IMG/VR virus record: IMGVR_UViG_3300033146_002014
Coordinates: 1-41,405 of that record
Origin: a virus
Strand: one strand, 5' to 3'
DNA length: 41,405 nt
The first letter of the stretch is position 1; each line of letters starts with the position of its first letter. The notes beneath the pieces are model-generated. The model saw only the letters and a list, made by a program, of their open reading frames with translations, did no database searches and had not been told where the DNA came from. Positions 1,184 to 38,008 of this stretch are shown one piece after another. A program made the position numbers and the translations under genes.

Positions 1184-1215
1184 CAAAGATATGATTAAAA
1201 TACCAAATAATCAAA
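1184..1215 (-). promoter_or_regulatory. Bacteroidota-type promoter (minus)
   Basis: On the minus strand, TTTG (1212-1215), a 20-base gap, then TATCTTTG (1184-1191), matching TTG-N20-TAnnTTTG. It drives the minus operon and is divergent from the promoter at 1222-1253. Confidence 0.75.
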
Positions 1216-1221
1216 TAAATG

Positions 1222-1253
1222 TTTGGATAATTAAAAAAAAAGTATTATCTTTG
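1222..1253 (+). promoter_or_regulatory. Bacteroidota-type promoter (plus)
   Basis: TTTG at 1222-1225, exactly 20 bases, then TATCTTTG at 1246-1253. The ATG of the CYTH gene follows only 4 bases later, so the transcript should be nearly leaderless. Confidence 0.75.
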
Positions 1254-4187: not shown

Positions 4188-4219
4188 TTTGGAAAATTAA
4201 AATATTTTTCTTATCTTTG
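4188..4219 (+). promoter_or_regulatory. Bacteroidota-type promoter
   Basis: TTTG at 4188-4191, 20 bases, TATCTTTG at 4212-4219. It lies upstream of the lipoprotein gene and leaves a leader of about 15 bases. Confidence 0.75.
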
Positions 4220-14255: not shown

Positions 14256-14696
14256 ATGATAAAGAAAAAGAAAAAAATAAACGAAGAAATCGTATGTTCA
14301 TACGACTCATCTAACATCTTAGCCTCTAAATACGAACCTAAATCTAAGAAGTTAACAATAACATTTAATCGTGGTACACAGTATCTTTATTTAGGTGTTG
14401 AACCTAATGAATATAAAGTATTCGAAGAAGCGAAAAGTCAAGGTGTTGAATTTAATAAGATAATTAAAATTAAAGATTTTGAAAAGCTTGGTGATGTTGA
14501 CCCAATAAAATTAGTTGAAGAGATTGAGAAGGGTGTAGTAGAAAAAACTGATTTAGATAAAGATGAAAAACAATTAGTTGTTGCTATGGAAAGTTTCTTA
14601 ATATTCCATAAAACTAAAAATACATTAGATATTGCTGAATTAACTGATTTAAAATATTTTTTAGATAAAGTTTTAGACCAAAAAAATAAAAAATAA
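14256..14696 (+). CDS. KTSC-domain protein
   Basis: A 146-residue protein with a KTSC domain at about residues 12-65: DSSNILASKYEP, then TITFNRGTQYLYLGV, an EYKVFEEAKSQG helix and FNKII. KTSC is a small domain of about 60 residues named from lysyl-tRNA synthetase tails and found in many phage and stand-alone proteins; its ligand is unclear. The rest is acidic and helical. I use the ATG at 14256, four bases after the -7 box; the TTG or GTG further up would lie in promoter sequence. The capsid-like gene starts directly after its stop. Confidence 0.75.
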   Translation: MIKKKKKINEEIVCSYDSSNILASKYEPKSKKLTITFNRGTQYLYLGVEPNEYKVFEEAKSQGVEFNKIIKIKDFEKLGDVDPIKLVEEIEKGVVEKTDLDKDEKQLVVAMESFLIFHKTKNTLDIAELTDLKYFLDKVLDQKNKK

Positions 14697-15230
14697 ATGG
14701 GTGTTCTAGGTTTACCTAATAAAGAAGATATTGATAGCCCATTTTCACTTATTTATGACGAACTCAATATAGAGGATTATTTAGTTGAGCTAGAATGGGA
14801 TTTTACATTAAACCATGTAGATGGGTGGAATGAAACCTTGATTACTAAAATTAATGAAGTTTCGGGTCATGTACATCATACCACACTTAGGGGTGGTGTT
14901 GATACGATTTATATCAACGAAGGTATACTATTCGTATTCCAATCTTTAATCGGTTTTAAAGATATGACACTTTATGGTCGATATTCAATCGTAATTGACA
15001 ATACATTAAGGCCAGATACTATTATTTGTGTACAGACACCGAACCCAGCTCTTGAAGATGCTGGGTTAATCGAAGTTGTTAATAAAGTGACGATGGACGG
15101 TGATATGATGAATGAGTTTACCTTTGAAATTTGTAAGAAAGATGATATTGATGACTTAAAATTAAAAAATCTAATTAAGAATACTAAAGGAATAATTAAA
15201 ATAAAAAATTTAAGTCAATGGGTGTATTAG
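14697..15230 (+). CDS. Truncated paralogue of the major capsid protein
   Basis: A 177-residue protein. Residues 44-67 (WNETLITKINEVSGHVHHTT then LRGG) align with residues 427-450 of this phage's capsid protein (WNQTLITKVNQISAQIHKST then LRGG). The following hydrophobic strand and TLYGRY (91-96) match TLNGRY (491-496) in the capsid protein. It therefore holds only a C-terminal part of the HK97-fold capsid core and lacks the N-terminal three quarters. The first 14 residues, MGVLGLPNKEDIDS, are not capsid-like but match the start of the next gene. It is co-transcribed with the KTSC gene from a host-type promoter. It cannot be a normal capsomer; a capsid-binding regulator, decoy or decayed duplicate are options. 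Confidence 0.75.
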   Translation: MGVLGLPNKEDIDSPFSLIYDELNIEDYLVELEWDFTLNHVDGWNETLITKINEVSGHVHHTTLRGGVDTIYINEGILFVFQSLIGFKDMTLYGRYSIVIDNTLRPDTIICVQTPNPALEDAGLIEVVNKVTMDGDMMNEFTFEICKKDDIDDLKLKNLIKNTKGIIKIKNLSQWVY

Positions 15231-15675: not shown

Positions 15676-15846
15676 ATGTTAAATAAAGTAGATAAAGTTT
15701 ACCATGAGTTAGTCGATGATATCCTAACAAATGGTAAGAAAAAAAATGAGAAAACCAAAACCAAAGAGGTATTTATAGGGTTTTATGTGGTGGTAGAAAA
15801 ACTTGTTGTGGTTTTAAATGGGAATATTATAATAATAAATAAATAA
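15676..15846 (+). pseudogene. thyA N-terminal fragment joined to endonuclease tail
   Basis: An open frame of 56 codons. The first 25 residues (LNKVDKVYHELVDDILTNG, then KKKNEKTKTK) mirror the start of the intact thymidylate synthase next door ([19 protein letters not shown], then [10 protein letters not shown]). After that the similarity ends. In another frame the DNA at about 15768-15837 reads GIYRVLCGGRKTCCGFKWEY, which looks like the C-terminal end of NUMOD-bearing HNH homing endonucleases (pattern G-K/R-R-K-T-x2-G-F-K-W-x-Y). This looks like the scar of an older thyA copy invaded by a homing endonuclease and then mostly deleted. It is unlikely to yield a working protein. Confidence 0.6.
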
Positions 15847-15852
15847 TAAAAA

Positions 15853-17173
15853 ATGAGTAAAAATTTAAACAATGTTGATATGGTCTATCACACACTTGTT
15901 AAAGATGTGTTAGAAAATGGTACCATACGAAATGATAGGACTGGCACGGGAACTATTTCTGTTTTTGGTAGAATGATTAGGTTTAATTTAGAAGACGGTT
16001 TTCCGTTATTAACAACTAAAAAGATGTGGATACCTGGTATTATACATGAATTATTATGGTTTTTGAATGGTGATACAAATATTAAATACTTAGTAGATAA
16101 TAAAGTTCATATTTGGGATGAATGGGCCAATGAGAATGGAGACCTTGGACCAGTTTATGGTCATCAATGGGTGAATTGGCCTAACCCAATAATATTAGAC
16201 GATGGTAGTGGTGAAGGTTGGTTTGATGATGGTATTAACCAAATACAAAATGCTATTAATACTTTGAGAACTAATCCAGATTCTCGTAGAATTATGGTTA
16301 GTGCATGGAATGTTAGTGATTTATATAATATGGCGTTATTACCGTGTCATTACGCATTTCAATTTTATACAACTGAATTAACTTTAGAAGAACGAGTTAA
16401 TCTATTAAAACCTTACGGTTTTGATGCTTTGACAACTGAGGCTAGAGATAAGTTCATGAAAGAACATAATGTACCAACCCGTAAATTATCGTTAAAGTGG
16501 AACCAACGTAGCGTAAACAAAAACTGCGCCTTAATACAGTAATGTATTTCGAATAACTTACCTAAACGGGGGAACTCTAAACAAGTTAGGTTGTAGACAA
16601 TCCCGTACTAAATTTTATAATAATATGGTTATAGGACTACCTTTCAATATCGTGAATTTAAATCGTTATCTGAATGTGCTAGATACTACAATGTAAGAGT
16701 GATAATTTTCCAGAATATTATTATAAATAAATGTGTAACGACTATCCCGAAAGGGAGTACATTCAAGTGAATGGAAATGGTAAGAACCCTAAATTTGGGT
16801 TGTGATATAGTCTAATCTGTATGGAAACATACAGCAGTTCATAAGAGAACGGTATATGATTAACGACCATATACGAATATAATGGGACACAGGATTAGGT
16901 TTACCATATAATATTGCGTCATATGCATTTTTAACACATATGGTGGCACAACAAGTTAATATGGTGCCAGGTGAATTGATTGCTGATTTAGGTGATACAC
17001 ATATTTATTTAAATCATGTTGATAAACTTAAAGAACAATTAGAGAGGGATTCATATAATCTACCAAAATTAGAACTAATGAAAGCAGATGATATTTTTTC
17101 ATATAGTTTTGAAGATTTTAAAATTGTTGATTATCAATCACACCCAACAATAAAAATGGATATTTCTGTATAA
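15853..17173 (+). CDS. thyA: Thymidylate synthase, split by a group I intron
   Basis: Exon 1 is 15853-16514 and exon 2 is 16885-17173; joined they encode 316 residues in frame. The enzyme methylates dUMP to dTMP with methylene-tetrahydrofolate. Signatures present are [35 protein letters not shown], the catalytic Cys165 in [17 protein letters not shown] joined to [13 protein letters not shown] across the splice, and [11 protein letters not shown]. Reading through without splicing stops after 229 residues. An insertion of about 30 residues before the WNQRS motif accounts for the length over the 264 of E. coli ThyA. T4 td is interrupted by a related intron near the same conserved motif. A terminator follows directly. 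Confidence 0.93.
16515..16884 (+). ncRNA. Group I intron, T4 td-like
   Basis: A 370-base intron with the core of subgroup IA phage introns. The 5' splice site GCGU (16511-16514) pairs with GCGC shortly downstream, with the expected terminal U-G pair (P1). ACGGG (16566-16570) pairs with CCCGT (16602-16606). The R and S elements GACTAT (16740-16745) and ATAGTC (16807-16812) form P7. CTGTATG-GAAA-CATACAG (16817-16834) is a hairpin with a GNRA tetraloop, P9-like. The intron ends in G at 16884. The stretch around ACGGGGGAAC and GTAGACAATCCCGT is very close to my memory of the T4 td intron. No intact endonuclease gene lies inside. Confidence 0.9.
16642..16722 (+). pseudogene. Remnant of intron homing endonuclease (NUMOD1-like)
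   Basis: Within the P6-side loop, one frame reads [19 protein letters not shown], similar to the NUMOD1 helix-turn-helix (F-K-S-L-S-E-A-A) found at the end of many HNH or GIY-YIG intron endonucleases. Stops flank it and no start is present. T4 td carries I-TevI in a corresponding P6 loop, so this is plausibly what is left of such a gene. Confidence 0.5.
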
Positions 17174-18025: not shown

Positions 18026-18742
18026 ATGAATAAAGAATTTATAAATGAAATAGAAGCTGGTGAGATAAATTTAAGCTCATTTAAGATTCACGATGAATTA
18101 AATCCTATGGTTTGGGTCAATTTTAAGATGAAGAGTAAAATTCGTACCAAGTTATTAAAAATTGCGGATGATTTTATCGATGAGTTAGATATACCGTGGG
18201 TTACTGTTAAAGATGTAATCCTTACTGGTAGTCTAGCTAATTTTAATTGGTCTAAATATTCAGATTTTGATTTACATATTGTTTTAGATTTCAATGATGT
18301 TGGTGAAAACCAAGAGTTCATCAAAAATTATTTTAATTCACAAAAAAACTTATGGAATAATAATCATGATATTAATATTTATTGCTTTGAGGTTGAGGTC
18401 TATGTACAGGATGAGAATGAGGAACATACATCTTCTGGTGTTTTTTCATTAGAAAATAATGAATGGCTTGTTAAACCAGATAAAACAAAACCAGTTATAA
18501 ACAAAACGCTTATAAAAGAGAAATCTGCTAAAATTATTTCACAAATTGAGGATGTTATCAAAAGGTTCAATAATGGTGAATATAAAAATGTGATGAAATA
18601 TTACGACATCATTAATAATAAGATAAGGAACATGAGGAAATCTGGATTAGATAAGGGTGGTGAGTACTCGTATGAAAATATAACATTTAAAGTACTAAGA
18701 CGCAGTGGCTTTTTAGAGAAACTTACTAATATATTTATATAA
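18026..18742 (+). CDS. Nucleotidyltransferase-fold protein
   Basis: A 238-residue protein with the polymerase-beta superfamily signature: Gly68-Ser69 in LTGSLANFNWSKYSDFDLHI and the Asp80-x-Asp82 metal pair, with a later acidic strand (CFEVEVYVQD) that could give the third carboxylate. Such proteins transfer nucleotides to nucleic acids, proteins or small molecules. The C-terminal half is helical and basic. It has a late-type motif in front and small virion-like genes behind, so it may be packaged or act late. Substrate unknown. Confidence 0.75.
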   Translation: MNKEFINEIEAGEINLSSFKIHDELNPMVWVNFKMKSKIRTKLLKIADDFIDELDIPWVTVKDVILTGSLANFNWSKYSDFDLHIVLDFNDVGENQEFIKNYFNSQKNLWNNNHDINIYCFEVEVYVQDENEEHTSSGVFSLENNEWLVKPDKTKPVINKTLIKEKSAKIISQIEDVIKRFNNGEYKNVMKYYDIINNKIRNMRKSGLDKGGEYSYENITFKVLRRSGFLEKLTNIFI

Positions 18743-22777: not shown

Positions 22778-23395
22778 ATGGGAATACTAAATCTTAATGA
22801 CATATCAAATGAGTATTACAATATTGGAGATTTTAATTTTTATACTAAATCATATGATTATAAATTAAGTGATACTCAGCAATCATTTATTAAATTACTC
22901 GAAAATAATTCATCGAAAATTATTTTTGTACAAAAAAGTAGACAAGTTGGGTATACGACATCAGTTAGCCTTTTTAGTTTCAATTCAATCCAAGAGAATA
23001 AAAACATTTTACATATTTCATCAACATCATTTGGTGCTAAATATGCTATTGATAAAATTAGAGGGTTAGTTACCAAATATAAACCTAGTATGTTGGCTAA
23101 TAAACGAAATTCTTTTAATTCTAAAGAAATTGTTACTAATAAATCAACATTTAAATCTATTTTTAATAGAATGGTTTTAAATGAACAATGTAAGCGATAT
23201 GATTATATTTTTATTGATGAATATTCTAGTCAATATAAAGTTGAACTAGGTCAACTTTTAGCTTATTGTTTACCATTAATAAAAGTTGATGGTACTATAG
23301 TTATTTCGAGTGATAAACAATTATATTTAGGTGAAGAAGGTACGACCCATTTTGATTTTACTGAACCACAATTTAATCGATTTGTACTAAAATAG
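22778..23395 (+). CDS. Stand-alone terminase-type ATPase domain protein
   Basis: A 205-residue protein resembling only the ATPase half of a large terminase. It has KSRQVGYTT at residues 53-61, a deviant Walker A like the KPRQAGVST of the terminase next door and the KSARVGYSK of lambda gpA, then a strand and helix (NILHISSTSFGAKYAIDKI) matching the terminase ILILANKQDMAQEFLGKI segment, and Walker B YDYIFIDE at 141-148. No nuclease domain follows. The ATG at 22778 is supported by the promoter. The N-terminus MGILNLND resembles MGVLGLPN of the capsid-like gene. It lies immediately before terL but under its own host-type promoter. Possible roles are packaging regulator, interference factor or decayed duplicate. 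Confidence 0.65.
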   Translation: MGILNLNDISNEYYNIGDFNFYTKSYDYKLSDTQQSFIKLLENNSSKIIFVQKSRQVGYTTSVSLFSFNSIQENKNILHISSTSFGAKYAIDKIRGLVTKYKPSMLANKRNSFNSKEIVTNKSTFKSIFNRMVLNEQCKRYDYIFIDEYSSQYKVELGQLLAYCLPLIKVDGTIVISSDKQLYLGEEGTTHFDFTEPQFNRFVLK

Positions 23396-23437: not shown

Positions 23438-26400
23438 ATGTTAACAAAACAACAACAATTAGAAGAATATGCTAAATGTATAATTAACCCAGCTTACGCT
23501 ATTGAAAGTTTTTTAGAAACTTTTGATAAAACACAAGAGGGTTTCGTACCATTTAAATTGTTTGAAAAACAATTAGAAATCATTGATGGTTATGAGAATC
23601 ATCGTTTTAATATTGTTGCTAAACCTAGACAAGCTGGTGTTTCGACAACCACAGCGGCTTATGCAGCTGTTAAAGTTGGTTTTGCCGACCCAGATAACCC
23701 AGAAAAAATTCTAATCTTAGCTAATAAGCAAGATATGGCCCAAGAATTTCTTGGGAAGATTAAAGATTTCCTAGCACAACTACCAAGATGGATTTGGGGT
23801 AGTGATTATTATGGTACATCAGAAAAAGAAAAGAAATCAATTTTCATTACCGATTCAAAAAAACACTTAATATTACCAAATAAATCAGAAGTTAAAGCTG
23901 TTGCGACATCTAAAGATGCTCTAAGGGGTTATACCCCAACACATCTAATAATGGATGAGGCGGCATTTATTGACGATGGTGAGATAGTATTTGGTGCGGC
24001 CCTTACATCGTTAGGTTGTTTAGTAAAAGATACATTAATATTAACTAATGATGGTTTAGTAGAATTAGATGAATTGGTCACCGAAAAAGAAAAAATAGGT
24101 TTTACTGATTTAGATACACCACATAAAGTTTGTAATATGGACGGGAATATTGTTGATGCTACCCAAACATTTGTTAGTGAATACGCAACAACCTATCGAA
24201 TTTTAACTAAAACAGGTATAGAATTAGAGGGTAGTTTTAAACACCCATTATTAGTAAACGATGAATGGGTTAAAATGGAAGAATTAAAAGTAGGGGATGA
24301 AATTAAAGTTGGTTATAATCAAAATATATTCGGTAATCACGATATTTTTGAATTCGATTATAAATTACACCCAAATGAATTCGATATTAATATCCCTAGG
24401 GATTTATCACAAAATTTAAATTTCGTCTATTTAATGGGGTTATTTGTTGCTGAGGGCAATTTCCAAAGTCGTGGTATAACAATAACTAATGTTGGTCCCG
24501 ATATTGTTAATTTTTTATTAAATGACGACGCTAATTTAGGTAAAGCTTTCACTAAGGTAGATGATAGACATTATTCATTATCGTCTACTAAATTAATTAG
24601 GTGGATGGATGCATTTGGTTTGAAAAAACATAATGCGAAAAATAAAGAAATCCCATTACCAATTTTGAAAATGTCGAAAGACGTTATTTCAGCTTTTTTA
24701 CAAGGGATGTTCGATGGTGACGGAATGTCAACATATAAAGAGATTAAATATTCCTCAACATCTAAAAAATTAATTAAACGTCTCCAAACTATTTTATTAA
24801 ATTACGGTATTAAATCACATATACATTATGTTGAGGAGGAAACTAGTGAGTCATCTATAATACCTAATAAAAGCCACGTTTGTAAATTATACAATTTATT
24901 TATCTATTCTAACCACGCGTTAAATTTTTATGATAACATAGGTTTTAGATTAAAACGAAAACAAGTTAACCGCAATAAGTTAATAAATAAAAAAGTTAAT
25001 TCAAGGTTCGTTGAAGTGACGCAACAAAGTATTTTAAAGATACTTAAAAAATATCATATCCCTAAATATAAAGTTAGGTTTTTAGATAGATTTTTTAATA
25101 GTAAGTATGCACGATTATCATATGACAGTTTGGGTAAATTAATTGATTACATTAAACACTATTATAATACGATTGACGGTGATTTAGATGAATTATTAAC
25201 CCAAAAATATTATAATGAAAATTATTTTTATGATGAAATAGTTGATATAATCGTTTCAAAAGATTATACTTACGATTTACACGTACCAGAAACACATTCA
25301 TTTATTAGTAATAGCGTTATTAGTCACAATACTGGTGGTCACGCAACACTGATTAGTTGTGTTGTTGACGATACTTTCGTTTTTACCGACAAAGGGATAA
25401 GGCAAATTAAAGATTTTATTCCAACACAAAACAACGGACCACATTTAATTGAAGAGTACCATGTTTTAGGTAAAAATAAATTACGAAGTGGTAATATATT
25501 CCATAATAATGGATTAGTTAATACTATAAAAATAAAAACCGTTAATAGTGAATTAGAAGGTAGTTACCCACATAAATTATACGCTTATTCAAACGGTAAA
25601 TATGGTTGGGTTAAAATGGAAGATTTAAAAGTTGGGGATTATGTTGCTCATCAATATGGTATGGGTATTTGGGGTAATGACGATAAGGTTAATTTTAAAT
25701 ACGAACCATCAACGAAAGAAAAAAACAGCCTTGGTGAAATAAATGAAATTACTAACGAAATGGCTTATTTTTTGGGGTTATATCTAGCAGAGGGTTCAGT
25801 TTACAAATCAATTAATAACGATGGTGACCATATTGGGACATCGATAACGTTAACGTGCTATGATGATATGACACCTGTATTTAATGGTATTGGTTTGCAA
25901 GTACAGTCATATGATAATTTACACTATACTGTTGGTTCTAAAGAGTTGGGTGCTTTTATGGAGTATTTAGGGTTTAATTTATCATTACACGCCAATGATA
26001 AAGTGATACCGAATAAATTATTAAGTCTATCAAAAGAAAAAACCAAATATTTGTTACGCGGTATATTCGATGGTGATGGTTTTAGTAGAAAAGATAAGGG
26101 TTATATTGGTATTGGATTGAGTTCCGAAAAATTAATCAAACAAATAAGGGTATTATTGAATAATTTTGGTATATTAACTGACTACTTCGTTGTGAACACA
26201 AAACCAACAAAATTAGTTAAAAGTTATTCAATGAATTATCGAATACAAACCAATGCAGTTTCAGCTAAAATATTCTACAAAGAAATTGGGTTTGGGTTTG
26301 AGAGGAAGCAAGTGAATGAACATGTCTTAAATGATAAAAAAATTGATTATTCCGACCCAAGAGATATTATACCTAATTCTAAAGAGTTAGTTAAAGAAAT

Positions 26401-27868
26401 TTATAGAGAATATAATGGGACTCAGAAACATCTAAAAGACATGGGGGTTTACATTCTACCAAATGGTAGTGGTAATAAAAGTAGGATGGGGCTTCTTAAA
26501 TTAATTGATTATGTTAAAGACGATTTAAGTGACGAGTTATTATCTAAATTAAATAAACACATTTCATATAATTTAAAATGGTGTAAAATAAAAGAAATAT
26601 CATACCACGAAAACTATACATATGATTTTTCACTACCAAATGATAATAATGATTTTTGGGCCCATTCAGTTATTTACAACGGTATTTTAGGTCATCAAAC
26701 GCCAAATGGTTATGATAAATTATATTATAAAACGTATGATGGTGCTCAAACTGGTGATAACGATTTTAATATTATTGAGATGCGTTGGTATCAAGACCCT
26801 CGTTATAATAAAGGTTTAATTTGGACTAAGGGTGATGAAACTATTACTGAAACTATATTCACAGTAGAATGGTTAGAAAAACGTAGACAAGATGGGTGGA
26901 AACCATCATCATCGTGGTATGAAGCGATGTGCCGTGGTATGAATAATGATAAACGAATGATTGCTCAAGAATTAGATGTTTCATTTGTTGGTTCTGGGGG
27001 TAATGTTATAGACGACGAATATATTATGTATCACGAAGAAAACTATGTTCAAGAACCAGAATGGATAAGTGGTAAAGATAATGAATTTTGGATATGGAAA
27101 AAGCCGATTGAGGGACATCAATATCTTTTAAGTTCTGATGTTAGTCGTGGTGATGGTGAGGATTCATCAACATTTACTATCATTGATTTCACTACAATGG
27201 AACAAGTAATGGAATATAAAGGTAAAATTCAACCAGATTTATTAGCACCATTGATTGATGAATATGCATCATTATACAACGCATATACCGTGGTTGATAT
27301 TACTGGTGGATTAGGGGTTGCAACTGTATTAAAACTATTGGAAATCGGTTTCAAGAATCTACATTATGATGACCCACGAAATAAAATATTATCTAGTAGA
27401 GCTGATTTACAAAAATTTGCCAAAGATAATGGTCGAAAAATCCCAGGATTAAATGTTAACTCAATACGATTACCAATGATTGCACTATTCGAACAATCAA
27501 TAAGAGAAAATTTAATTAAAGTTAGGTCTAAAAGATTAATATCTGAAATGAGAACATTTGTTTATCGTAGTGGTAGACCAGACCATATGGTTGGTTATCA
27601 TGATGATTTATTAATGGCAATGGCTATGGGTTTATGGGTTTTAGAACACGCATTTAAAAATTTAGAAAAATTAGAGAAACAAACAAAAGCGATGTTGAAC
27701 AGTTGGACTATGACTGGTGGAAATGTTGTTGAGGATAAAACTGAAGCCGTTTTTGTATCTAAAGATAAAAAAGTAATAAGGAGCAAACCTAAATTTCACC
27801 CAACCGTTTCTAAAAATATGCAAGACCCACGTGGGGAGTATTTATGGTTGTTTAGTGGAATGAGATAA
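23438..27868 (+). CDS. terL: Terminase large subunit (gp17-like) with two inteins
   Basis: A 1476-residue precursor. Residues 194-631 and 641-1087 are inteins, leaving a mature protein of 591 residues, close to T4 gp17 (610). It packages DNA into proheads by ATP hydrolysis and cuts the concatemer. The ATPase part has deviant Walker A KPRQAGVSTT (62-71), Walker B LIMDEAAF (D173, E174) and coupling motif LIS-TPNG, which is split by intein 2. The RNase H-like nuclease part has SSDVSRGDGEDSS, YTVVDITGG and GYHDDLLMAM, supplying the metal-binding acids. Both inteins have N-terminal Cys and Thr as the next extein residue. A late-type motif precedes it. The nine residues TGGHATLIS between the inteins belong to the enzyme. 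Confidence 0.93.
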   Translation: MLTKQQQLEEYAKCIINPAYAIESFLETFDKTQEGFVPFKLFEKQLEIIDGYENHRFNIVAKPRQAGVSTTTAAYAAVKVGFADPDNPEKILILANKQDMAQEFLGKIKDFLAQLPRWIWGSDYYGTSEKEKKSIFITDSKKHLILPNKSEVKAVATSKDALRGYTPTHLIMDEAAFIDDGEIVFGAALTSLGCLVKDTLILTNDGLVELDELVTEKEKIGFTDLDTPHKVCNMDGNIVDATQTFVSEYATTYRILTKTGIELEGSFKHPLLVNDEWVKMEELKVGDEIKVGYNQNIFGNHDIFEFDYKLHPNEFDINIPRDLSQNLNFVYLMGLFVAEGNFQSRGITITNVGPDIVNFLLNDDANLGKAFTKVDDRHYSLSSTKLIRWMDAFGLKKHNAKNKEIPLPILKMSKDVISAFLQGMFDGDGMSTYKEIKYSSTSKKLIKRLQTILLNYGIKSHIHYVEEETSESSIIPNKSHVCKLYNLFIYSNHALNFYDNIGFRLKRKQVNRNKLINKKVNSRFVEVTQQSILKILKKYHIPKYKVRFLDRFFNSKYARLSYDSLGKLIDYIKHYYNTIDGDLDELLTQKYYNENYFYDEIVDIIVSKDYTYDLHVPETHSFISNSVISHNTGGHATLISCVVDDTFVFTDKGIRQIKDFIPTQNNGPHLIEEYHVLGKNKLRSGNIFHNNGLVNTIKIKTVNSELEGSYPHKLYAYSNGKYGWVKMEDLKVGDYVAHQYGMGIWGNDDKVNFKYEPSTKEKNSLGEINEITNEMAYFLGLYLAEGSVYKSINNDGDHIGTSITLTCYDDMTPVFNGIGLQVQSYDNLHYTVGSKELGAFMEYLGFNLSLHANDKVIPNKLLSLSKEKTKYLLRGIFDGDGFSRKDKGYIGIGLSSEKLIKQIRVLLNNFGILTDYFVVNTKPTKLVKSYSMNYRIQTNAVSAKIFYKEIGFGFERKQVNEHVLNDKKIDYSDPRDIIPNSKELVKEIYREYNGTQKHLKDMGVYILPNGSGNKSRMGLLKLIDYVKDDLSDELLSKLNKHISYNLKWCKIKEISYHENYTYDFSLPNDNNDFWAHSVIYNGILGHQTPNGYDKLYYKTYDGAQTGDNDFNIIEMRWYQDPRYNKGLIWTKGDETITETIFTVEWLEKRRQDGWKPSSSWYEAMCRGMNNDKRMIAQELDVSFVGSGGNVIDDEYIMYHEENYVQEPEWISGKDNEFWIWKKPIEGHQYLLSSDVSRGDGEDSSTFTIIDFTTMEQVMEYKGKIQPDLLAPLIDEYASLYNAYTVVDITGGLGVATVLKLLEIGFKNLHYDDPRNKILSSRADLQKFAKDNGRKIPGLNVNSIRLPMIALFEQSIRENLIKVRSKRLISEMRTFVYRSGRPDHMVGYHDDLLMAMAMGLWVLEHAFKNLEKLEKQTKAMLNSWTMTGGNVVEDKTEAVFVSKDKKVIRSKPKFHPTVSKNMQDPRGEYLWLFSGMR
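24017..25330 (+). mobile_element. TerL intein 1 (LAGLIDADG type)
   Basis: 438 residues. It starts at Cys in SLG/CLVKDT, has the block B His in GSFKHPLLV, two endonuclease motifs (LMGLFVAEG and LQGMFDGDG) and ends SHN before Thr. All expected splicing residues are present. It is inserted just after the Walker B region. Its domains resemble those of intein 2 (RLKRKQVNRNK against GFERKQVNEHV). Confidence 0.93.
25358..26698 (+). mobile_element. TerL intein 2, C-terminal Gln
   Basis: 447 residues, in the coupling motif between LIS and TPNG. It starts CVVDDTFVF, with block B His in EGSYPHKLY and endonuclease motifs FLGLYLAEG and LRGIFDGDG. It ends GHQ before Thr: the usual terminal Asn is Gln. A few natural inteins with terminal Gln are known to splice. 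It is a likely sister of intein 1. Confidence 0.92.
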
Positions 27869-28178: not shown

Positions 28179-31100
28179 ATGGGAACTGATAAAAATAATG
28201 GTAAACAATTAACCGTCTTCCAAAGAATGAATAAAGTTTTTGGTCCAGAAGGTGTTAAAGTACCTCAAAATAAAACTAATCGTTATTCTTTAGGTAATAA
28301 AGAAATTCTTAGGACACAATCTAAGAGTGAATTAGAAAAAACAAAATTACAAGCACAACAAAATTTACATCTTAGTCAAACTTGGCGAAAAGTAGATGGT
28401 GAAATGTATCAACAATCGATACATTATGAAACAACTAGGATTGGTTCTTATACTGATTTTGAATCAATGGAATTTTTCCCAGAGATAGCAGCCGCATTAG
28501 ATATTATGATGGAAGAATCGACTACACCTAATGATAAAGGTGTTATTGTTAATATTCATTCATCATCTAAAAGGGTTAAACAAATATTAGAAGATTTATT
28601 TTTCCATAGATTAGAATTACATACTAATTTACCAGCATGGGCTAGGAATGTGTGCAAATATGGGGATAATTTTGTATTTTTAAATATTGATGATAAAGCT
28701 GGTATTATTGGTTGTAGACAAATGCCTAATTTTGAAATGGAAAGGCGAGATGGTGATTTACATAGTGAACTGTTATCTAAGAATAATATTGATAGTAGTG
28801 GGTCTGAATACGATAATAGAATTAAATTTAATTGGAAAACTAAGGATATAGAATTTAATTCATGGCAAATTGCGCATTTTAGATTATTAGGTGACGATAG
28901 AAAATTACCATATGGTACTTGTTTAAAAGGTGATACTAGAATTAATATCGATAATGGTGTTAAATTCATTTCTGATATAACCAAAGGTGATATGGTTTAT
29001 AGTTTTAATACTAAAACACAAGAAAAAGAATTATCACCAGTTTTAGATACGGTTAATTCTGGGAAAAAAGAATGTTTTAAAATTAGTACTAGACATAATT
29101 TTATTGATGTTACAAAAGAACATAAAGTAATGGTGTTAAACGATGACCACGAATTTATTTATAAAAATGTGGTGGATTTGAAATTGGGTGATTTATTAAT
29201 AATAAATAAAAATGAACACACAAATAAGTTAATACCGATTGATAAATCAAAACCTATTGAAAATAAAAATGGTTGGTTTAATCAAATTGATTTAATACCA
29301 TCGTTCGTTGACGAAGAATTTGCACAATTATTTGGGTTTCTAATTGGTGATGGATGGATTAATCATACAGTAAATACCGTTTCATTCGCGTTAGGTGTTG
29401 ACGAAGAGGTGAACGAATATTATATTGATTTATTAAGGCGTTATTCTGGTGGAAACCCTAGAGTTGATAATAACGGTAAACAAGTTGTTTTATCATCTAA
29501 GTTATTAACAACCATTTTAAAAAGAATGGGTTTTGGTGGTAAATCTTATGAGAAACGATTACCAGAATGGATTTTTAATACAACACCAGAAATCCAAAAA
29601 TCATTATTAGCTGGTTTAATGGATGCCGATGGTTGGTTTACTAAAGATGAATGGACAGTTGGGTTCCATATTGAATTAAACAATAATCAATTGGTTAAAG
29701 ATTTAAAAATATTATTACAGCGAATTGGTTATAAATCTGGGTCTATTAGAAGTCGACTACGTAATAAACCAATCATTGAAGGTAGGGAAATTAAAACAAT
29801 TAGAAAAAGTTATATGATAACCTTCTTTGATTCGTATCTGAAACAAATGATAAAATATGATAATAAGAATAGGTTAACTGATGACTATATATTAGAACCA
29901 ATTAATAAAATAGAATCAATTGGGTTACATGAAACTTATGATATCTACGTTGAAAATGAGAATCATAATTTCTATGCAAACAACATTATTGTTCACAATT
30001 CCTTTTTAGAAAAGGCTAGACGTATTTGGAAACAATTATTATTATCCGAAGATGCTATGCTAGTGTACCGTGTAACAAGGGCCCCAGAACGTAGAATATA
30101 TAAAGTTTATGTTGGAAATATAGATGATGCCGATGTTGAGGCTTATGTAAACAACATTGCTGATAGATTTAAACGAGCTCCAGTAATAGACCCACAAACT
30201 GGTCAAATTGATTTAAGATTCAATCAAATGGGTCAAGACCAAGATATTTTCGTCCCAGTTAGAGATGAGAATGCACAAACACCTATCGATACTTTACCTG
30301 GTGCAGCTAATCTTGACGCTATCGCAGATATAGAATATTTACAAAATAAGTTATTCACAGCTTTACGCATACCAAAACCATTTTTAGGTTTTGATAGTGC
30401 AATTGGTGATGGTAAAAATTTAGCTATTCAAGATATTAGATTTTCTAGGACTATTAATCGTATTCAACAAGCGCTTATAATGGAGTTAAATAAAATCGCC
30501 ATTATACATTTATATTTATTGGGTTTAGAAGATGATTTAGATAACTTCACATTGACATTAAATAACCCATCAACACAAGCCGAAATGTTGAAAGTTGAAC
30601 ATCTGCAAACTAAGATTAATTTATATACATCAGCGGTTGTTGATTCTGGTAATGGTTTCGCACCAATGTCTATGACAAGAGCTAAACGTGAAATATTACA
30701 TATGTCTGATGATGAAATTAAACAAGATTTATTAGAACAACGTATAGAGAAAGCTGCTGCGGCTGAATTAGCTAAAACTGCTGCAATTATTAAACATACT
30801 GGTTTCTTTGATAAAGTTGATAATATTTATGCTGACCCAGAAGCTTTAGCTAAAGCCGATGAATTAGGTGATGAAGAAAATGGTGGTGAAGGTGATGAAG
30901 ATTTAGGAATGGGTGGTGGCTCATTCGGTGGTGGTGGTGACCTAGATTTTGGCGACGAAGGTGATGAAGAAAATATCGATATTGAAGATGCTGCTAATGA
31001 TTTAGCTGATACCGAAGGTACTGAAAATAACGATGAGGATTTAGGTGATTTTGGTGAATCATTAAAGAAAACAAATAAGTTATTAAATGAAGCTAAACAT

Positions 31101-31286
31101 AAGTATAATGTTAAATTAAATCAACGTATCATTAAGCATCGCAATAATTATTTTGATAAACTAATTAAAACCGTTAACCCTAATTCTAATGTCATTGAAG
31201 AATCAATGAAATTATCTGATAAAGGTATGAAATTTAATGATGATATTAATGATATGATTTCTAGGATTGATAAAAAACTTGGCTAA
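28179..31286 (+). CDS. Portal protein (gp20-like) with one intein
   Basis: A 1035-residue precursor; removing the intein (residues 248-607) leaves 675 residues. The portal forms the dodecameric vertex through which DNA enters. The exteins contain EFFPEIAAALDIMMEESTTP, the joined PYGT-SFLEKARRIWKQL, EDAMLVYRVTRAPERRIYKV and FLGFDSAIGDGKNLAIQDI, which follow gp20 of T4-like phages. It is about 150 residues longer than T4 gp20 (524), because of an Asp/Glu/Gly-rich region with GMGGGSFGGGGD near the C-terminus and a helical tail. The start is an ATG after an A-rich leader without a Shine-Dalgarno sequence. Confidence 0.92.
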   Translation: MGTDKNNGKQLTVFQRMNKVFGPEGVKVPQNKTNRYSLGNKEILRTQSKSELEKTKLQAQQNLHLSQTWRKVDGEMYQQSIHYETTRIGSYTDFESMEFFPEIAAALDIMMEESTTPNDKGVIVNIHSSSKRVKQILEDLFFHRLELHTNLPAWARNVCKYGDNFVFLNIDDKAGIIGCRQMPNFEMERRDGDLHSELLSKNNIDSSGSEYDNRIKFNWKTKDIEFNSWQIAHFRLLGDDRKLPYGTCLKGDTRINIDNGVKFISDITKGDMVYSFNTKTQEKELSPVLDTVNSGKKECFKISTRHNFIDVTKEHKVMVLNDDHEFIYKNVVDLKLGDLLIINKNEHTNKLIPIDKSKPIENKNGWFNQIDLIPSFVDEEFAQLFGFLIGDGWINHTVNTVSFALGVDEEVNEYYIDLLRRYSGGNPRVDNNGKQVVLSSKLLTTILKRMGFGGKSYEKRLPEWIFNTTPEIQKSLLAGLMDADGWFTKDEWTVGFHIELNNNQLVKDLKILLQRIGYKSGSIRSRLRNKPIIEGREIKTIRKSYMITFFDSYLKQMIKYDNKNRLTDDYILEPINKIESIGLHETYDIYVENENHNFYANNIIVHNSFLEKARRIWKQLLLSEDAMLVYRVTRAPERRIYKVYVGNIDDADVEAYVNNIADRFKRAPVIDPQTGQIDLRFNQMGQDQDIFVPVRDENAQTPIDTLPGAANLDAIADIEYLQNKLFTALRIPKPFLGFDSAIGDGKNLAIQDIRFSRTINRIQQALIMELNKIAIIHLYLLGLEDDLDNFTLTLNNPSTQAEMLKVEHLQTKINLYTSAVVDSGNGFAPMSMTRAKREILHMSDDEIKQDLLEQRIEKAAAAELAKTAAIIKHTGFFDKVDNIYADPEALAKADELGDEENGGEGDEDLGMGGGSFGGGGDLDFGDEGDEENIDIEDAANDLADTEGTENNDEDLGDFGESLKKTNKLLNEAKHKYNVKLNQRIIKHRNNYFDKLIKTVNPNSNVIEESMKLSDKGMKFNDDINDMISRIDKKLG
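28920..29999 (+). mobile_element. Portal intein (LAGLIDADG type)
   Basis: 360 residues, from Cys in YGT/CLKGDT to VHN before Ser. Block B is VTKEHKVMVL; endonuclease motifs are LFGFLIGDG and LAGLMDADG. All splicing residues are canonical. Confidence 0.95.
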
Positions 31287-32662: not shown

Positions 32663-34399
32663 ATGGATGATTTAAAAATATTGAAACCAGGTGAATTCGG
32701 TACCAAGGGATATTTAATTGAATATGACGCTGGTTATATCGACCCAAAAGATAAACGTAATCTAGCGTTTGTTAATGAGGTCGCTAAAATTGAAAGAAAA
32801 GAAACGGTAATCGCTGAACCCTTAGTTGTAACAGTAGTTTTACAAAAATATGGTGTTGAAAACGCTAATGGTAGGATATACCCAGAACCAATTTTAAGAA
32901 GAGAAGCTGATTTATACCAAACGTTAATACAAGAGGTAAGAGCTGTTGGTGAGTGTGTTACAAAGGAAACTGAAGTTTATACAATTAATGGGTGGGTTCC
33001 AGCTAATAATGTTAAAGTTGGTGATGAAATTTACACATTAAATTTGGAAACGAATCAAATACAAATACAACAAATCACGCATTTAAGTGATACGATTTAT
33101 AATGATGAACTAATACACATATATAATAAATCATCGTTAGACATGGTTGTAACTAAAAACCATAAAATTGTTTTATGGGATAGGAATAATAACCCTTATG
33201 TTTTAAGAGCCGATGAATTATATGATAAAATTAAAAATAATGATTCAAAAGTAAACCATTCATATATAAAGCGTGGTGGTGATTGGATAGGTGAGGATAA
33301 AGAGACTATTGAAATCTCTGGTTATGAAATACCAATGGAAGACTGGGTTGCTTTTATGGGTATTTATTTATCTGATGGTCATTCTACTGGTACGAAAGGT
33401 GGTAAACAAACAAATTCAGTTATTATAACACAAGTTAAAGAAATTTCATCTAAAAAAATCGTTGAATTATTAGACCGTTTACCATTTGATTACACTTTGT
33501 CTAATAACAGACAATATATAATAAACGATAAGGATTTACATGATTTGTTGTATCAATTAGGTAATTCATACACTAAATATATACCAGATTATATTAAAAA
33601 TTTATCGCAAAAATATTTAAACATTTTAATAGAATGGTTGTTATTGGGTGATGGTTGGAATAGACATGATAGTAAAGGTGTAACGTTGCGCGAATATTAT
33701 ACAACATCACGTCAATTAGCTGATGATGTCAATGAGGTGTTTTTAAAATTAGGTAAAGGTGGTAGTATACACACTCGAACACCTAAAGATAGGTTGATTG
33801 AAGGTCGATTAATTTTAAGTGAAAATTCTAAAACATTATATGTTGTTAGTGAACATAAAACAAAGGGTGTTTATTTAGATAGTAGATTTACTAAAGTTGA
33901 AAAAATAAAATACAATAACCATGTATATGGTATTACTGTTGATAATGGTACTTGGTTGATGCGATATAACAACAAAATAAGTTGGACACATAATAGTGAC
34001 CATCCAGAAAGTTCAATAATATCCGTTGAGAGAATATCCCATAATATTACAAAGATTTGGTGGGAAGGTGCAACTCTAATGGGTGAAATGGAAATTTTGA
34101 TGTCACCAGGTTTTATTAATTATGGTATAATTTCTTGCCAAGGTGACCAAATCGCAAATTTATTACGAAAAGGTATTAGAATCGGTGTTTCTTCAAGAGG
34201 CGTTGGTTCATTAGAAGAAATAGATGGTAAGAACATTGTTCAAGACGATTTTGAAATAATCGGTTGGGATATTGTAGTTTCTCCATCAACACCTGGGTCA
34301 TGGATGTTCAAAAATAGAGAAGAAGCACAACCTTTTGTTGAAAATAAGATAAAAAATAAGAATTTATTGGTTGATAAACTGAACAATTTCTTATTATAA
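32663..34399 (+). CDS. Prohead core protease (gp21-like) with one intein
   Basis: A 578-residue precursor; removing the intein (residues 98-444) leaves 231 residues, close to T4 gp21 (212). It is the serine protease that matures the prohead by cutting core and capsid proteins. Visible are ENANGRIYPEPIL near the N-terminus, the catalytic His in the joined VGE-SDHPESSII, and the nucleophile Ser in IGVSSRGVGSL, which follow the herpes-type prohead protease pattern. The intein interrupts the gene two residues before the His, so the unspliced protein should be inactive. It lies between the core-like genes and the scaffold as in T4. Confidence 0.9.
   Translation: MDDLKILKPGEFGTKGYLIEYDAGYIDPKDKRNLAFVNEVAKIERKETVIAEPLVVTVVLQKYGVENANGRIYPEPILRREADLYQTLIQEVRAVGECVTKETEVYTINGWVPANNVKVGDEIYTLNLETNQIQIQQITHLSDTIYNDELIHIYNKSSLDMVVTKNHKIVLWDRNNNPYVLRADELYDKIKNNDSKVNHSYIKRGGDWIGEDKETIEISGYEIPMEDWVAFMGIYLSDGHSTGTKGGKQTNSVIITQVKEISSKKIVELLDRLPFDYTLSNNRQYIINDKDLHDLLYQLGNSYTKYIPDYIKNLSQKYLNILIEWLLLGDGWNRHDSKGVTLREYYTTSRQLADDVNEVFLKLGKGGSIHTRTPKDRLIEGRLILSENSKTLYVVSEHKTKGVYLDSRFTKVEKIKYNNHVYGITVDNGTWLMRYNNKISWTHNSDHPESSIISVERISHNITKIWWEGATLMGEMEILMSPGFINYGIISCQGDQIANLLRKGIRIGVSSRGVGSLEEIDGKNIVQDDFEIIGWDIVVSPSTPGSWMFKNREEAQPFVENKIKNKNLLVDKLNNFLL
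32954..33994 (+). mobile_element. Protease intein (LAGLIDADG type)
   Basis: 347 residues, from Cys in VGE/CVTKET to THN before Ser. Block B is VTKNHKIVLW; endonuclease motifs are FMGIYLSDG and LIEWLLLGDG. All splicing residues are canonical. Confidence 0.94.
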
Positions 34400-36141: not shown

Positions 36142-37884
36142 ATGTCACATTTATTAACATCTGGCGCAGTAGGAAACATTGGTTTAAACCATATGAAAGC
36201 TGTTCGTCAACAAACACAACAAAAATGGGGTAGTTTAGGATTCCTAAACGGTCTTAAAGGGCACGTGAAAGAAAACGTAGCTCAATTGTATGAGAATGAA
36301 GCTTCATTCTTAATGAACGAATCTACTATGGCCGATGGTTCATCTGGTTCTTTTGAAACAGTTGTATTCCCTATTGTACGTAGAGTATTCTCAAAATTAT
36401 TAGCGAATGATATCGTATCAGTACAAGCATTAAATATGCCTATTGGTAAGTTATTCTTCTTCATCCCAGAAACATCTGAGAGATTATCTGATGGTAGACA
36501 TTCATCAAATATGTCAGACCAAGGTGCGTATGACTGTGTAAGCGGTGTATGTTCATCAACTGAGTGGAGAAAGAAAAATCTTTACGATATTTATTACAAT
36601 GACGGTTTATTCGACGCTTCTAAAGGTGCGTTAACATTAGCTTCTATAACTGGTACTCCAGTAACAATGGATACTGATGGTGAATTTACTGTAGCAACTA
36701 GTTTCCCAACAGCTACTGACGGTACTGTAAGAACAGTTATGATGAAAGTTACTGGATGGTATTCTGCAAACGCTGGTCGTTTAACAGGTCCAGACGGAAA
36801 CGAAATGGATACTGAGTCATTCTTAGCTTCATTAAAAGTTATTAATGATGGTGGTTTAGGTAACATTGTTGACCCAGATAACCAAGTAATAATCGCTAAC
36901 GGTGCTGAAGTACCATTTAGATTAGTAACACAAAAATACGGTAAAGGTATCGTATCATATAACGATATTTGCGACGCTGACGGTGCATTATATATTGAGT
37001 TAGATTTATCTCACCCAGTATCACCTAACGCAACTGTTGAAACATTTGATGGATATATTGGGACAAGCGGTTTAACTGCTGATTCAAGTTCATTCTCTGT
37101 AACATATGCTCAATACGACACATTAGAACTAGAAACTGAAATGGGTGAAGTAACATTCAAACTAGATGAGGTTGTAGTTTCTGTTGAAGAACGTAAATTA
37201 AGAGCTACATGGTCACCAGAATTAGCGCAAGACGTTAGTGCATTCCATAATATCGACGCTGAAGCTGAGTTAACAGCAATGTTATCAGAGCAAGTAGCAG
37301 CTGAGATTGACCGTGAAATCTTAAGAGATTTAAGAAAAGCGGCTGCATGGCAAATGAGATGGGATTACAATGGTTGGAGAAAAGCTTCTACAGCTGCAAG
37401 TCCTTACACTCAAAAAGACTGGAACCAAACTTTAATTACTAAAGTTAACCAAATTTCAGCACAAATCCATAAATCAACTCTAAGAGGTGGTGCAAACTTC
37501 GTTGTTGTTTCTTCTGAAATTTCAGCTGTATTTGACAACCTTGAGTACTTCCACGTATCGGATGCAAATCCAGAGGAAGACCAATACAACATGGGTATTG
37601 AGAGAATAGGTACATTAAACGGTAGATACCAAGTGTATCGTGACCCATATGCACCATATTACTCAATGATTATTGGACATAAAGGTAAATCATTATTGGA
37701 TACTGGTTACATTTACGCACCATACGTGCCATTGCAATTAACTCCAACAATGTATAACCCATTCAACTTCGCACCAGTGAAGGGTATTATGACACGTTAC
37801 GCTAAAAAAGTTGTCAATAATAGGTTCTATGGAGGAATCAGAGTGGATGGAGTTCCTACATTTAATATCAACGAATTACGATAA
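36142..37884 (+). CDS. Major capsid protein (gp23-like)
   Basis: A 580-residue HK97-fold capsid protein of the T4 type (T4 gp23 521). Signatures are the N-terminal LYENEASFLMNESTMADGS region, FETVVFPIVRRVFSKLLAND, IGKLFFFIPETSE, RKLRATWSPELAQD, AELTAMLSEQVAAEIDREI and the late YIYAPYVPLQLTPTMYNP and GIMTRYAKKVVNNRFYGG. The leader is A-rich with no good late motif, so it may be read from upstream. The codon choice has more C and G at third positions than in neighbouring genes, as expected for a highly expressed gene. A strong terminator follows. Residues 427-496 are the part mimicked by the gene at 14697. Confidence 0.95.
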   Translation: MSHLLTSGAVGNIGLNHMKAVRQQTQQKWGSLGFLNGLKGHVKENVAQLYENEASFLMNESTMADGSSGSFETVVFPIVRRVFSKLLANDIVSVQALNMPIGKLFFFIPETSERLSDGRHSSNMSDQGAYDCVSGVCSSTEWRKKNLYDIYYNDGLFDASKGALTLASITGTPVTMDTDGEFTVATSFPTATDGTVRTVMMKVTGWYSANAGRLTGPDGNEMDTESFLASLKVINDGGLGNIVDPDNQVIIANGAEVPFRLVTQKYGKGIVSYNDICDADGALYIELDLSHPVSPNATVETFDGYIGTSGLTADSSSFSVTYAQYDTLELETEMGEVTFKLDEVVVSVEERKLRATWSPELAQDVSAFHNIDAEAELTAMLSEQVAAEIDREILRDLRKAAAWQMRWDYNGWRKASTAASPYTQKDWNQTLITKVNQISAQIHKSTLRGGANFVVVSSEISAVFDNLEYFHVSDANPEEDQYNMGIERIGTLNGRYQVYRDPYAPYYSMIIGHKGKSLLDTGYIYAPYVPLQLTPTMYNPFNFAPVKGIMTRYAKKVVNNRFYGGIRVDGVPTFNINELR

Positions 37885-37941: not shown

Positions 37942-37977
37942 GTTTAAAAATAAACAATAGATTTTATGGTTGTTTTG

Positions 37978-38008
37978 TTGACAAATACATAATTATATAA
38001 TATATTTG
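37978..38008 (+). promoter_or_regulatory. Bacteroidota-type promoter
   Basis: TTG at 37978-37980, 20 bases, TATATTTG at 38001-38008, 4 bases before the endonuclease ATG. Confidence 0.8.

Follow-up and report, generated by a model that had tools for sequence, protein, structure and literature searches.

The gene P0002, found in a 41,405-nucleotide stretch of viral DNA (positions 1 to 41,405 of IMG/VR record IMGVR_UViG_3300033146_002014; the whole stretch is called the window below), is an intact chimera in which about 31 new residues at the N-terminus precede a diverged copy of the final third, the A-domain region, of a gp23-type capsid gene (Table 1). Judging from its sequence, it looks like a real, one-off accessory protein and is probably functional. 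The explanation that we tentatively favour, at a probability of roughly 0.4, is that after partial duplication of a capsid gene the A-domain was kept folded as a free protein that would act by binding or mimicry.

Table 1. Coordinates in the window of P0002, its parts, its capsid counterpart and the flanking genes
Feature	Position	Strand	Remarks
P0002 chimeric gene	14697..15230	+	ORF with exactly these limits; ATG start, 177 codons (177 aa); capsid A-domain-like body
N-terminal peptide MGVLGLPNKEDIDS of P0002	14697..14738	+	common to the next ORF
P0002 core, residues 44-84	14826..14948	+	homologous to capsid residues 427-467
P0002 second homologous block, residues 91-143	14967..15125	+	capsid residues about 491-545
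P0002 residues 144-177	15126..15227	+	MAFFT-aligned to the capsid tail; not significant alone
gp23-like capsid protein	36142-37884		Pfam Gp23, E=5e-71
gp23-like capsid C-terminal third, residues 405-580	37354..37881	+	region homologous to P0002
KTSC-domain gene	14256..14696	+	PF13619, E=8e-13; stop codon abuts the P0002 ATG
Downstream orphan ORF, 150 aa	15218..15670	+	13 nt overlap with P0002; same N-terminal peptide; relatives not found
56-aa ORF	15676..15846	+	first ~34 residues repeat the start of the adjacent thymidylate synthase (E=8e-9, 48% identity)
Nucleotidyltransferase-like gene	18026-18739		far flank of the insertion

Homology of P0002 to the gp23-type capsid protein

In BLASTP, residues 44-84 of P0002 align with residues 427-467 of the window's own capsid protein, encoded 22 kb away, with 46% identity and 73% positives (E=2e-11), and in a comparison of all ORFs of the window with one another this is one of eight pairs with E<0.01 (9e-10). 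Further along, TLYGRY at residues 91-96 matches TLNGRY at capsid residues 491-496, and the block of residues 91-130 scored better than 1000 of 1000 shuffles (z=4.2). Against the capsid proteins of relatives, BLASTP aligned residues 32-143 at 27-30% identity over 117-139 aa, with E values down to 7e-10 against 8,957 ORFs. The order of the capsid sequence is preserved across this region with two internal deletions: one has removed about 10 capsid residues ahead of W44, the other about 17 from the stretch that joins L84 to the TLxGRY block. MAFFT carries the alignment on to the capsid C-terminus; taken alone, residues 145-177 score no better than shuffles and the similarity of residues 26-43 to the capsid is not significant. 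The N-terminus of non-capsid origin comprises residues 1-31 and ends at about position 14789.

The preliminary description of this DNA had aligned both blocks to the capsid protein correctly, and the similarity reaches beyond them, over residues 32-143. Its view of P0002 as a C-terminal piece only, taken from a gp23-type capsid gene and fitted with a new N-terminal peptide, is borne out by the BLASTP and shuffle results. Derivation from such a gene is nearly certain from these comparisons, and common descent with gp23 sequences is detectable over residues 32-143. The description had also named the window's own capsid gene as the source; the gp23-type origin stands but this part is not supported, the identity being 44% to the own capsid protein and up to 49% to those of relatives. 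When P0002 was placed on a tree of capsid proteins its branch ran to the limit, so that its position there is meaningless. In the Pfam search no match of P0002 to PF07068 (Gp23) was seen at E<=1. Matches to PHROG 8863 (E 0.02) and Pfam PF20950 (E 0.29) are weak and were dismissed as chance.

Predicted fold

P0002 has no counterpart of capsid residues 1-404 and so does not comprise a complete HK97 fold. Prediction with AlphaFold from the P0002 sequence alone gave no usable model (pLDDT 31), and with 19 capsid rows the pLDDT was 73-83 across roughly residues 41-110. Chains of gp23 lead the Foldseek list for the capsid-row model and rank high in the VIA list, 6uzc superposing with a Z of 10.4 over 118 aligned residues (rmsd 3.5). 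The preliminary description had staked its proposal on a structural match to the HK97 fold; such a match, to gp23, is found, and because capsid rows were fed into the model it shows compatibility, not proof. The model also superposes on PF0899 of Pyrococcus furiosus (PDB 2pk8), a 94-aa protein of unknown function, with a Z of 7.9 over 86 residues (rmsd 2.9); like P0002 it is short and stands alone. That protein, however, is archaeal and 15% identical, the likeness is structural, and so middling a Z, below 8, can reflect no more than an arrangement that is common among proteins.

Selection or decay

The codon-position GC of P0002 resembles that of real genes, and 177 stop-free codons would arise by chance with a probability of 8e-8 in a genome of 29% GC. 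The main rival to a retained, folded domain is a young, still-open relic, which the preliminary description had offered as a fossil: P0002 would be a functionless partial copy in a region that gathers broken duplications, with stops not yet acquired. Neutral decay from the capsid sequence would be expected to have produced 6.3 stops, where none is seen (P(no stop)=0.001). In the core pN is 0.35 against a pS of 0.78, the synonymous differences being saturated, and the changes are conservative when set against a no-stop neutral simulation that starts from the window's own capsid sequence (mean BLOSUM, P=0.0003), a signal that is weak when other capsid sequences are the starting point (P 0.03-0.13). 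Hydrophobic core positions have stayed hydrophobic in 16 of 18 cases. The second block, on the other hand, has about equal values (pN 0.57, pS 0.59), which tells against the favoured reading; against the neutral decay named in the preliminary description stand the absence of stops and the conservative core changes. Neutral decay is on balance unlikely, and a relic, though still a rival, is made rather doubtful.

The residues that P0002 retains are not concentrated at the capsid-invariant columns (p=0.66). No capsid-like constraint is thus seen, a point against the favoured reading, and P0002 has evidently not been kept as a shell subunit; the same observation counts in favour of a relic. Our reading is that P0002 would be a folded domain freed from the constraint of building shells.

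P0002 lies in an accessory insertion

On sequence grounds, P0002 sits in an accessory insertion built partly from pieces of other genes. The insertion, of about 3.3 kb, holds P0002, two orphan ORFs, an intron-split thyA and a minus-strand gene. It is absent, and P0002 with it, from six syntenic relatives (L114, L115, L119, L125, L133 and L150), so that the copies which the preliminary description had suggested seeking at this locus in related phages were not found there; in these relatives the KTSC gene adjoins the nucleotidyltransferase-like gene or is separated from it by at most one unrelated ORF. Over their first 14 codons P0002 and the next ORF are identical at 11 of 14 residues, with a pS of 0.63 and a pN of 0.09, the differences being mostly silent, and the two sequences then diverge. 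This N-terminal motif was not found elsewhere in IMG/VR. The next ORF was also considered as a second capsid derivative, and its similarity is not significant. The 56-aa ORF likewise begins as a copy of a gene start and diverges from ThyA after about 34 residues.

These surroundings cut both ways for a relic. A partial thyA copy, a repeated gene start and a split thyA within one insertion are what a region collecting broken duplications would contain, but P0002 is tightly coupled to both neighbours and the peptide that it has in common with the next ORF has changed mostly silently. On the favoured reading, the KTSC gene, P0002 and the next ORF would be expressed together.

A group I intron (Rfam RF00028, scoring 43.1 bits and so under the gathering score of 50, E=9e-10) interrupts the thyA gene (15853-17173), with exons placed by eye at about 15853-16514 and 16885-17173, an arrangement reminiscent of the T4 td gene.

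The preliminary description had ascribed to P0002 a host-type promoter and, probably, synthesis outside the late class. Sites of the form TTTG-N17-23-TANNTTTG are not found close to P0002, and sigma70-like matches occur here less often than in shuffled sequence. With that promoter not found and the ATG placed directly after the KTSC stop codon, expression outside the late class is left unsupported. The late-promoter-like sequence TATAAATA is not enriched over shuffles either. Elsewhere in the window, matches to the Bacteroidota-type promoter TTTG-N17-23-TANNTTTG stand just before gene starts at 1184-1215 (-), 1222-1253 (+), 4188-4219 (+) and 37974-38008 (+), the total count in the window being not above chance.

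Rarity and origin of P0002

No homologue of P0002 was found in 99 related virus records (49 + 50 whole records chosen by capsid or ClpA-like similarity), in 50,697 phage records or in scans of IMG/VR and GTDB. IMG/VR was searched by protein, by the shared N-terminal motif and by TLRGGVDT; all of these scans, those of GTDB and of the phage and virus records included, are at their best with close relatives. Orthologue searches with P0002 matched capsid genes only. The C-terminal third of the capsid protein, used as query, finds 2,462 matching places in 2,459 phage records, and second copies that can be detected at this level are therefore nearly absent; among 58 related virus records the window alone has a second capsid match longer than about 45 residues, counts that are valid for close relatives of this capsid protein, since more diverged fragments could escape. 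An orphan in all searches is what would be expected of a relic.

Smaller partial copies do occur in relatives, and these too count towards a relic. In G007 (L214:1191-2053, -) an inserted acetyltransferase-like gene follows the capsid gene, and behind it the final 26 residues of the capsid protein are encoded a second time. In G086 (L215:6781-7236, -) a 152-aa frame has a capsid-tail-like segment near its start (TNYANKMVDGKFYGVINV; E=1.5e-4) and a cysteine-rich, zinc-ribbon-like C-terminus; within the phage collection a relative exists for the C-terminal part of this frame alone. The capsid-tail peptide was not seen as a recurrent tag in the related loci. An extra profile match in G046 falls inside a ClpA-like ATPase and was taken as chance.

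An origin of P0002 by recombination is plausible because relatives hold partial capsid copies, the window holds inteins and an intron, and in T-even phages homing endonucleases can bring about segmental amplification (PMC13096335). The event would have been an illegitimate duplication that took in part of a capsid gene from this lineage.

Possible roles of a free A-domain

With the N-arm, E-loop and long P-domain helix missing, P0002 alone cannot build a shell. It would seem possible that selection has retained its folded A-domain for a purpose other than shell building and that the free domain binds as a capsid mimic, occupying a partner of the capsid A-domain; the partner might be adjacent subunits of the capsid, or else a protein, from the host or from a competitor, by which the capsid protein is recognised. 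In HK97-fold shells the A-domains contact each other at the capsomer centres.

Comparison with known proteins places P0002 apart from each of them. It shares descent, over residues 32-143, with the A-domain region at the C-terminus of this lineage's gp23 (PF07068) and its model matches gp23 chains, but it represents the last third only, without N-arm, E-loop or spine helix, has two deletions and gives no score against PF07068. The T4 vertex protein gp24 is likewise a gp23 paralogue in a T4-type phage; it is, however, a full-length shell subunit encoded beside gp23, whereas P0002 is a 177-aa fragment far from it. T4 Inh, a minor head protein and inhibitor of the head protease, resembles P0002 in being a small accessory head-related protein; membership of the Inh family was rejected as there is no sequence similarity (best E 3.2). 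Among the titles and abstracts listed in an open-access library, no precedent was found for truncated capsid paralogues or capsid-fragment decoys.

A parallel in kind is Ccm of SaPIbov5, likewise a diverged copy of a capsid protein outside the capsid gene. Ccm is a 24%-identical full-length capsid homologue that enters helper shells as pentamers and alters their shape (PMC8569155). It has all capsid domains and is borne by a satellite, whereas P0002, known from sequence, has one domain and lies in the phage itself, on a contig with terminase and capsid genes. By extension from Ccm, and in line with the capsomer binding and interference suggested in the preliminary description, a free A-domain could enter shells at their capsomer centres, whether these are the phage's own, those of co-infecting phages or satellite-redirected ones, and poison or redirect their assembly, which the mutual contacts of A-domains would allow. 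This is quite improbable: P0002 lacks the intercapsomer elements, does not preferentially retain capsid-invariant residues and is encoded outside the head cluster, the window gives no evidence of a satellite, and constant self-poisoning would harm the phage.

Capsid proteins are also sensed by host defences. In a model, CapRel-SJ46 touches both the P-domain and the A-domain of a capsid protein from a phage (PMC9712102), and Gp23 of T4 triggers CmdTAC via the chaperone CmdC (PMC11618068). P0002 might accordingly be a decoy that takes up a CapRel- or CmdC-like sensor but leaves it untriggered, and a variable accessory insertion would suit an anti-defence gene. We consider this very improbable, as such a sensor might just as well be triggered by a piece of capsid protein and a decoy would have to be expressed at a particular time.

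Short of choosing between such partners, a free A-domain kept for binding could, by analogy, act through the contacts used in the CapRel, CmdTAC and Ccm cases. The more specific proposal is that this T4-like phage has turned an A-domain from its own capsid lineage into a free accessory mimic of capsid protein that blinds capsid-sensing host defence or poisons the assembly of competitors; we hold it to be improbable. Several bacterial defences are triggered by major capsid proteins, which satellites also target, and a free single-domain copy carried by a T4-like phage would offer a natural reagent for asking whether phages use capsid mimicry. If non-functional, P0002 would still be a clear example of a new phage gene made from a piece of a capsid gene.

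Other features of the head cluster

The head cluster of the window is unusually rich in inteins, the window as a whole containing several inteins and a group I intron. The terminase gene (23438-27868) holds two LAGLIDADG/intein stretches, and similar inserts are shared by two ORFs whose positions suggest a portal-like (28179-31286) and a protease-like (32663-34399) product. Directly upstream of the terminase gene lies an orphan 205-aa ORF (22778-23395; PHROG 5989, E=0.003), which weakly resembles the N-terminal part of the terminase ATPase (24% identity to its neighbour) and may be another case, after P0002, of a free-standing protein derived from a head gene.
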